From NCBI GenBank assembly GCA_030630935.1, contig DAOVMD010000216.1, positions 1 through 5,904 on the forward strand: a stretch of DNA of 5,904 bases, in the 5' to 3' direction. Below are positions 1,613 through 3,520 of this stretch, in pieces. Source of the DNA: Candidatus Mcinerneyibacteriota bacterium. GTDB taxonomy: Bacteria; AUK180; JAQVHJ01. The notes below the pieces were generated by a model. The model saw only the letters and a program-made list of their open reading frames with translations. It did no database searches and had not been told where the DNA came from. The position numbers were made by a program, and so were the translations under genes. Numbering within the stretch: the first letter of the stretch is position 1; the number at the start of each line of letters is the position of its first letter.

Positions 1613-3520
1613 TTAAGTCCAATATATCAAGAGACCGCTATTAGGGAAAATCCAGTCTTTTTCGTTTGTAGAAATATGAATCTTATCCTTTTTATATTTA
1701 ATAACGGGGTACCTGATTTTTCCTGCAAAGAACGGAAAGATTTTTGGCGTTTTAATTTTTATTTTCGAATAATCAAATAAAATTTCAAGTCCTTTAGTAG
1801 GATGGATAATATAAACCGGGAATTCCTTTTTATCTTTTGGATGAATTGTATCAAACTCCAGGTAAAATTCCACGGGTTGATTCAGTAGGTTCATTTTTTC
1901 GGGGATTTCCATATTAAACTCAAGACCTCTTTTAGTTTTTATTTTCTCAACTAATTTTAGTTTATGATTATTGATTTTAACCTGTTTAAGTTTAAAGTCC
2001 TCGAAATCGAAAATTCTTTTTTTCTCGAGCAGCCACCTATACTCTACTGTTGGATCCCTAAACAGCTGCTCAAGTTTTCGTTCGGTATTAGTACATGCGA
2101 TTTTAAATTTGGAATTTGTAAAGACTTTTTCATATTTAATTATAATCCTGGCATTATAGAAATTCTTCAATTTTTTATTATCTGAGAATGCAATTTTATA
2201 ATAGAATTTATTTCTAAAGCTCATAGGTTCATCATTAACACTGAAGATTGATTGAAATAGACCGTGGAATAAAGAGTTCCCCACTTCCTCATTTAACCTT
2301 AGCTGGAGTGAATGTTTAATTATTTCGTCTAACTTATCTTTTGTAATTAGGTTATTTGTAATATCCTTCCTTTTAAGAATCGGACGAAACTTTTGGATTT
2401 TTTTCTGATTAATATAAATTCTTGGAGCCCGTTTTCCAACTGAACAGAGGACATAATAGTTCAGAGTTCCGGCTTTTTTTGCAATATCCTCTGCAGTAAT
2501 TTTCTGTTTTCCTGACTGTCCTATTAAAGTCACTTTGTCACCAACCTTAACAGAGTTATCCTCACCCAGATCAACCATTGTTAAATCCATTGTAACGCGC
2601 CCCACTATCGGGAACCTTTTTCCATTTATGAGGACTTCACCATTATTTGACAGGAGGAAATCATACCCATCCCCGTAACCTATTGGGAGGATTGCAATAT
2701 TTGTATTCTTCTTCACTTTAAATGTCCGGTTATAGGATACTGTTTGATTTTTTTTAAATCTTTTTATAAGAATAACCTGGGTTTTAAATGTCATTACAGG
2801 TTTTACTTTGATTTTATTTTTTAGTTCAGGTCCCGGGTATTCGCCATAAGAAAGGATTCCGGCTCTGACCATATTAAAATGAGACGATGGGTAATTTATT
2901 ATCCCACCTGAATTTGCCATATGAATAAGTGGAATCTTTACTCCGTTTTTCTTTAAATTTTTAATTAATTTTATAAATTTCTTAATCTGGTTCCCGGAAA
3001 AATCATCATTTGAAATCTCTGAATTTGGAAAATGAGAGAAGATACCTTCGATGGAGATATTTTTAAATTTGGCTATTTTAAAAATTTCTTTTTCAGCATT
3101 ATCAATTTCAAAACCTGTCCTCCCCATTCCCGTATCAATTTCAATATGAATATTCAGGGTATTATTTAATTTTTCTAATTTTCTATTCATTTTCCCTGCA
3201 AATTTCACTGATGACACAGCGGGAGTAAGTTGATACTTAATAATATCATCAATCTCATCAAAAGTTGATGGGCTCAAAATAATAATAGGAGAAGATATCT
3301 CCCCTAACCTCAACTGTATTCCTTCATCGGCATTTGCAACACCTAAGTATGAGATGTTGTTATTCAATGCGATTCTTGAAACTTCAATCGCACCATGACC
3401 ATAAGCATCTGCTTTTACAACCTGGAGATATTTAGTTTTTGAGTTAAGGAATTTTTGAATTGAATGGATATTTTCTGTTAACCTTTTAATATCTATTTCA
3501 GCCCAACTGCGATATTTCAT
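1613..3520 (-). CDS. alr: Alanine racemase with a ~255-residue C-terminal extension of unknown function
   Basis: The N-terminal part is a PLP-dependent alanine racemase (L-alanine to D-alanine for peptidoglycan, cytoplasmic). Residues 1-370 span the whole enzyme: WAEID at 6-10, the PLP lysine K36 in VVKADAYGHG, TGMGRTGF with R134, SHF with H163, MANSGG with N203/S204, R219, the catalytic tyrosine Y263 in VSYNRTF, GYGDGY with Y282, M311-D312, and the C-terminal LCSVGKRAPRIY. Two changes are notable: E127 sits where the Geobacillus enzyme has its carbamylated lysine, and N264 replaces the usual glycine after the catalytic tyrosine.

Ordinary alanine racemases end near residue 370, but this frame continues to 635. 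The extension has a helical start (about 393-425), then mostly beta-like segments rich in Phe, Ile and Lys, ending with TKGLEILFDYS (575-585) and WIFPNSGLLIYW (623-634). I do not recognise it, and it shows no membrane helices. The gene lies 15 bases after the TPR stop with no good Shine-Dalgarno. The racemase call is firm; the role of the extension is open. Confidence 0.93.
   Translation of the reverse strand: MKYRSWAEIDIKRLTENIHSIQKFLNSKTKYLQVVKADAYGHGAIEVSRIALNNNISYLGVANADEGIQLRLGEISSPIIILSPSTFDEIDDIIKYQLTPAVSSVKFAGKMNRKLEKLNNTLNIHIEIDTGMGRTGFEIDNAEKEIFKIAKFKNISIEGIFSHFPNSEISNDDFSGNQIKKFIKLIKNLKKNGVKIPLIHMANSGGIINYPSSHFNMVRAGILSYGEYPGPELKNKIKVKPVMTFKTQVILIKRFKKNQTVSYNRTFKVKKNTNIAILPIGYGDGYDFLLSNNGEVLINGKRFPIVGRVTMDLTMVDLGEDNSVKVGDKVTLIGQSGKQKITAEDIAKKAGTLNYYVLCSVGKRAPRIYINQKKIQKFRPILKRKDITNNLITKDKLDEIIKHSLQLRLNEEVGNSLFHGLFQSIFSVNDEPMSFRNKFYYKIAFSDNKKLKNFYNARIIIKYEKVFTNSKFKIACTNTERKLEQLFRDPTVEYRWLLEKKRIFDFEDFKLKQVKINNHKLKLVEKIKTKRGLEFNMEIPEKMNLLNQPVEFYLEFDTIHPKDKKEFPVYIIHPTKGLEILFDYSKIKIKTPKIFPFFAGKIRYPVIKYKKDKIHISTNEKDWIFPNSGLLIYWT

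Follow-up and report, generated by a model that had tools for sequence, protein, structure and literature searches.

An alanine racemase with an uncatalogued C-terminal domain of predicted M1-N-like fold in at least four bacterial phyla

Alanine racemase makes the D-alanine of bacterial cell walls, and this supply is an essential, classic drug-target step of wall synthesis. The enzyme is normally a stand-alone dimer. In known fusions to another module, such as MurF-Alr and the membrane-bound VanT-type racemases, the partner lies on the N-terminal side. The window, i.e. the whole stretch of 5,904 nucleotides analysed here, encodes a racemase that continues at its other end. A complete gene on the minus strand (1613-3520) forms a single uninterrupted frame of 635 residues plus stop, with the racemase followed by about 260 further residues, and the same architecture is common to 37 distinct full-length proteins. 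Searches of titles and abstracts in an open-access library found no description of a racemase with such a C-terminal domain, and racemases are not mentioned in a phylum-wide paper on Cloacimonadota from 2026 (PMC13082233).

The enzyme half is an ordinary fold-III alanine racemase. Both domains exceeded their curated Pfam cut-offs: Ala_racemase_N (residues 9-229; 2834-3496, minus strand) scored 206.9 bits against a cut-off of 24.1 (E 4.3e-61), and Ala_racemase_C (residues 242-369; 2414-2797, minus strand) 158.5 bits against 25 (E 7.4e-47). The domains thus span residues 9-369, in agreement with the sequence-only reading, which had placed the end of the racemase near residue 370 and the end of the unbroken frame at 635. 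The PLP lysine K36 (codon 3413-3415), the catalytic tyrosine Y263 (codon 2732-2734) and the other signature residues were invariant in the 37 fused proteins, which makes activity of the racemase half very probable. Its membership in the family points to alanine as the substrate.

The remainder of the protein resembled no catalogued family. Pfam left residues 370-635 entirely unassigned, with EAD11 and GIY_YIG_2 below their cut-offs, and searches of Pfam, NCBIfam, PADLOC and the PDB sequences with single members as well as alignments returned no match above threshold. A tblastn search found no copy in plasmids. SmQnr, a designed inhibitor, isopullulanase, EAD11 and GIY_YIG_2 were all rejected as the family of the extension, their matches being sub-threshold. 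The extension had been called unrecognised from the sequence, and indeed no curated family in the libraries searched covers it; it comprises an uncatalogued beta domain of about 200 residues preceded by a helical segment. Positions conserved in at least 90% of the members are mostly aromatic, hydrophobic, glycine or proline, together with K465, Y494, R495, R436 and E412. No histidine, aspartate or cysteine of the extension reached this level, and a conserved catalytic set was not found.

An AlphaFold2 prediction of the extension, made from an input of five rows, yielded a beta-rich domain at residues ~433-635 (1616-2224, minus strand) with pLDDT mostly between 80 and 95. Ahead of it lies a helical segment (residues ~376-432; 2225-2395, minus strand) with pLDDT below 50. 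The full-length model (pLDDT 68, pTM 0.44) was too poor for reading the packing of the domains. A folded, rather than disordered, domain after the racemase is thus supported by a discrete and confident prediction; its proposed extent of residues 380-635 requires correction, since the confident fold begins at ~432 and residues ~376-432 form a separate, low-confidence yet conserved helical segment.

Among the Foldseek matches of the predicted beta domain M1 aminopeptidases predominated (best E 4e-6, many M1 chains at E ~1e-5). VIA-align superposed 142-173 residues, at 6-11% identity, on M1 N-terminal domains, Ost1/ribophorin I, 3kd4 and 4g2a, with Z scores of 9.7-11.3. The beta domain thus resembles an M1 N-terminal domain in fold, as judged on a predicted model with pLDDT mostly 80-95 in the aligned part and not on a solved structure. 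At the level of sequence the M1 N-terminal domain family PF17900 gave no Pfam match at E 1 or better, and hhalign returned a probability of 3% (P 0.015) with partial overlap. The hhalign score of 22.5 was higher than those of 40 column-shuffled controls (maximum 18.2), yet close to the score of DUF3857 against M1 (21.9), so that remote homology between the extension and the M1 N-terminal domain is possible but unproven. DUF3857 itself (PF12969), which we take to be the N-terminal domain of 3kd4, had no Pfam match to the extension, and its hhalign probability (0.6%) lay within the shuffled controls. The profile-profile comparison suggested earlier thus gave no significant similarity to PF17900 or PF12969, and the structural comparison found a known, M1-N-like fold; the extension resembles described folds (M1-N/Ost1) while its family is undescribed in the libraries searched. 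DUF3857 matches occur elsewhere in these organisms, with three in the genome of the window (including L145 on G000:C40 and L161 on G000:C82) and three or more in each of the seven genomes of its phylum.

Each of the seven genomes sampled from the window's phylum carried the fusion; two of the copies are truncated at contig ends, the remainder of one of them sitting on another contig. When 386 broadly sampled genomes were searched with a profile of the extension, 12 genomes had a convincing match, seven from the window's phylum and five from three other phyla, and each match lies in a frame of ~605-644 residues that begins with a racemase. No stand-alone copy of the extension and no copy beyond these four phyla was found in this sample. 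Two weak matches (G193 and G363, E ~0.008) fall in frames resembling proteins of the glycosyltransferase and restriction types and were taken as chance. Genome G146 is presumably Candidatus Cloacimonas acidaminovorans, hence its phylum is probably Cloacimonadota; there the extension was detected in 99 of 124 genomes, compared with one of two in the phylum of G111 and two of four in that of G142. A search of the genome contigs with the window sequence alone gave no match, and one with the class alignment gave matches confined to the window's phylum.

The order of racemase and domain was checked in the 37 distinct full-length proteins, the remaining loci being known by the length of their open frames only (a few are truncated or interrupted). 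In every locus examined the domain follows a racemase, a point that the sequence-only reading had proposed to record, and the relatives in the same phylum keep one fused gene rather than two separate ones. This recurrence in the seven genomes and in other phyla rules out an assembly artefact. Two loci deviate in detail. Genome G403 carries two similarly scoring fused copies, L074 (G403:C70:286-1050) and G403:C98:3578-4342, which may reflect duplication or a strain mixture, and at G449:C22:19002-19904 the domain was matched in three pieces inside one open frame of 701 residues, suggesting loop insertions.

When a tree was built from the racemase portions, the fused proteins all grouped in one clade (support 99/97) with no intact plain racemase inside; L108 and L114, which appeared as plain racemases within it, are both cut by contig ends. 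A single fusion event is therefore the simplest reading of the tree, for which the program counts three label changes. This pattern is compatible with one fusion and subsequent vertical inheritance, loss or transfer from one phylum to another. The intact plain racemases of the probable Cloacimonadota (G433, G434, G448, G470 and G486) fall into another clade far from this one; G470 carries a fused and a plain enzyme. The members of this second, alanine-racemase-like clade (L107, L110, L111, L112 and L115, from G433, G434, G448, G486 and G470 in that order) are ~385-390 residues long, sit on a long branch and end near 'NYELL.RLP..IPR'. Genome G247, from the phylum of G111 and devoid of the extension, has its racemase in a frame of 420 residues and is absent from the tree. 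Six genomes (G420, G457, G460, G482, G386 and G387) showed no Ala_racemase_C match at an estimated completeness of at least 91%, which another route to D-alanine or assembly gaps may explain.

Estimates of dN/dS in close pairs were 0.04-0.20 for the beta domain and 0.07-0.23 for the racemase. The helical segment gave 0-0.14 in most close pairs, including those of the probable Cloacimonadota, where its conservation equals or exceeds that of the beta domain, and one noisy value of 0.42 (L008/L009). These low values, similar to those of the racemase, indicate that the extension is maintained by purifying selection. Recurrence across genomes and phyla together with dN/dS well below 1 likewise shows that the extension is no chance read-through.

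Upstream of the racemase, outside the fusion, lies a gene for a protein of 749 residues with Pfam TPR matches (3536-5785, minus strand), and docking of the extension to this neighbour had been proposed. The TPR gene ends only 15 bases ahead of the racemase in the window and is also adjacent in the closest relative (G001). Among the loci examined these are the only two with that arrangement: the window's racemase is flanked by TPR and EamA genes, and the other fused racemases have different neighbours, namely nitroreductase/DUF3467/RsmE in the f2 genomes, murF in G111, aldehyde dehydrogenase in G142 and PhoH in most loci viewed of the probable Cloacimonadota (several of these names were read from translations, not from a family search). 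Because the gene neighbourhood varies from lineage to lineage, a partner encoded beside the racemase, the TPR protein included, is no general feature, and we regard a tie between the extension and the TPR protein as highly improbable. On the far side of the window, positions 1-600 look non-coding and are T-rich and of low complexity. This region contains direct repeats that are short and degenerate, has an inverted repeat at 4-43 and gave no Rfam match, and the frames listed at 191-584 (minus strand) look spurious.

What the extension contributes may be approached from the enzyme. In the alanine racemase dimer the active sites lie where the two subunits meet, so an extension on the C-terminal barrel would sit beside this interface. 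A standard fold-III racemase would then carry the helical segment and a non-catalytic M1-N-like beta domain as a fixed part, which may fix the quaternary arrangement or bind a protein encoded away from the racemase locus. We give an even chance to the reading that the extension structurally scaffolds the racemase dimer or offers a docking surface on it, and is not a second enzyme. It is favoured by the wide conservation and apparently single origin of the fusion, by purifying selection on the domain and by the matches to non-catalytic folds; against it, the likeness to M1 and Ost1 is one of fold, a shared fold implies no function, and the reading does not account for the strongly conserved helical segment. 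A bifunctional protein, its second activity directed for instance at D-alanine or a dipeptide, would be compatible with the size of the extension and with its resemblance to a peptidase domain. The M1 N-terminal domain and the Ost1 domains are, however, non-catalytic parts of larger proteins, and in combination with the lack of a conserved His/Asp/Cys set this makes a second enzyme very unlikely.

The main rival to a scaffold or docking surface is allosteric sensing, in which the extension would bind a small ligand, such as a wall precursor or an amino acid, and adjust racemase activity. C-terminal regulatory domains are appended in other PLP enzymes, and the conserved charged and aromatic residues K465, Y494, R495 and R436 could line a binding site. 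A review is reportedly devoted to allostery in PLP enzymes (PMC9081730). The extension nevertheless resembles none of the ligand-binding families of Pfam or NCBIfam, and sensor domains are absent from its fold matches; we consider a sensor unlikely. A broader proposal is somewhat doubtful but conceivable: the fused racemases, nearly phylum-wide in the probable Cloacimonadota and present in the window's phylum, might be an undescribed subfamily in which the M1-N-like domain would couple D-alanine production to a specific partner or signal absent from plain racemases.

A C-terminal fusion of apparently single origin, kept in several deep and mostly uncultured phyla, implies an extra level of organisation or control of the D-alanine step, and an uncatalogued domain family gains a clear enzymatic context for testing. 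With the plain alanine racemases (PF01168 and PF00842) the fused protein shares both complete domains, the conserved catalytic lysine and tyrosine and the fold family, but those sampled from other phyla lack its C-terminal residues. The M1 N-terminal domain (PF17900, e.g. of LTA4H and PepN) shares the predicted fold (VIA Z ~10, ~145-155 residues aligned, rmsd ~3.2), but identity is 6-11%, below Pfam detection, and no M1 catalytic domain with HEXXH follows, as the fused protein ends with the extension. The luminal domains of Ost1/ribophorin I and 3kd4 are likewise similar in predicted fold (Z 10.5-11.3), but at ~8% identity and in unrelated protein contexts. Like MurF-Alr and the VanT-type proteins, the protein of the window joins a racemase to another module; unlike them it begins with the racemase at its N-terminus, and its C-terminal partner is soluble and belongs to no known enzyme or membrane family.
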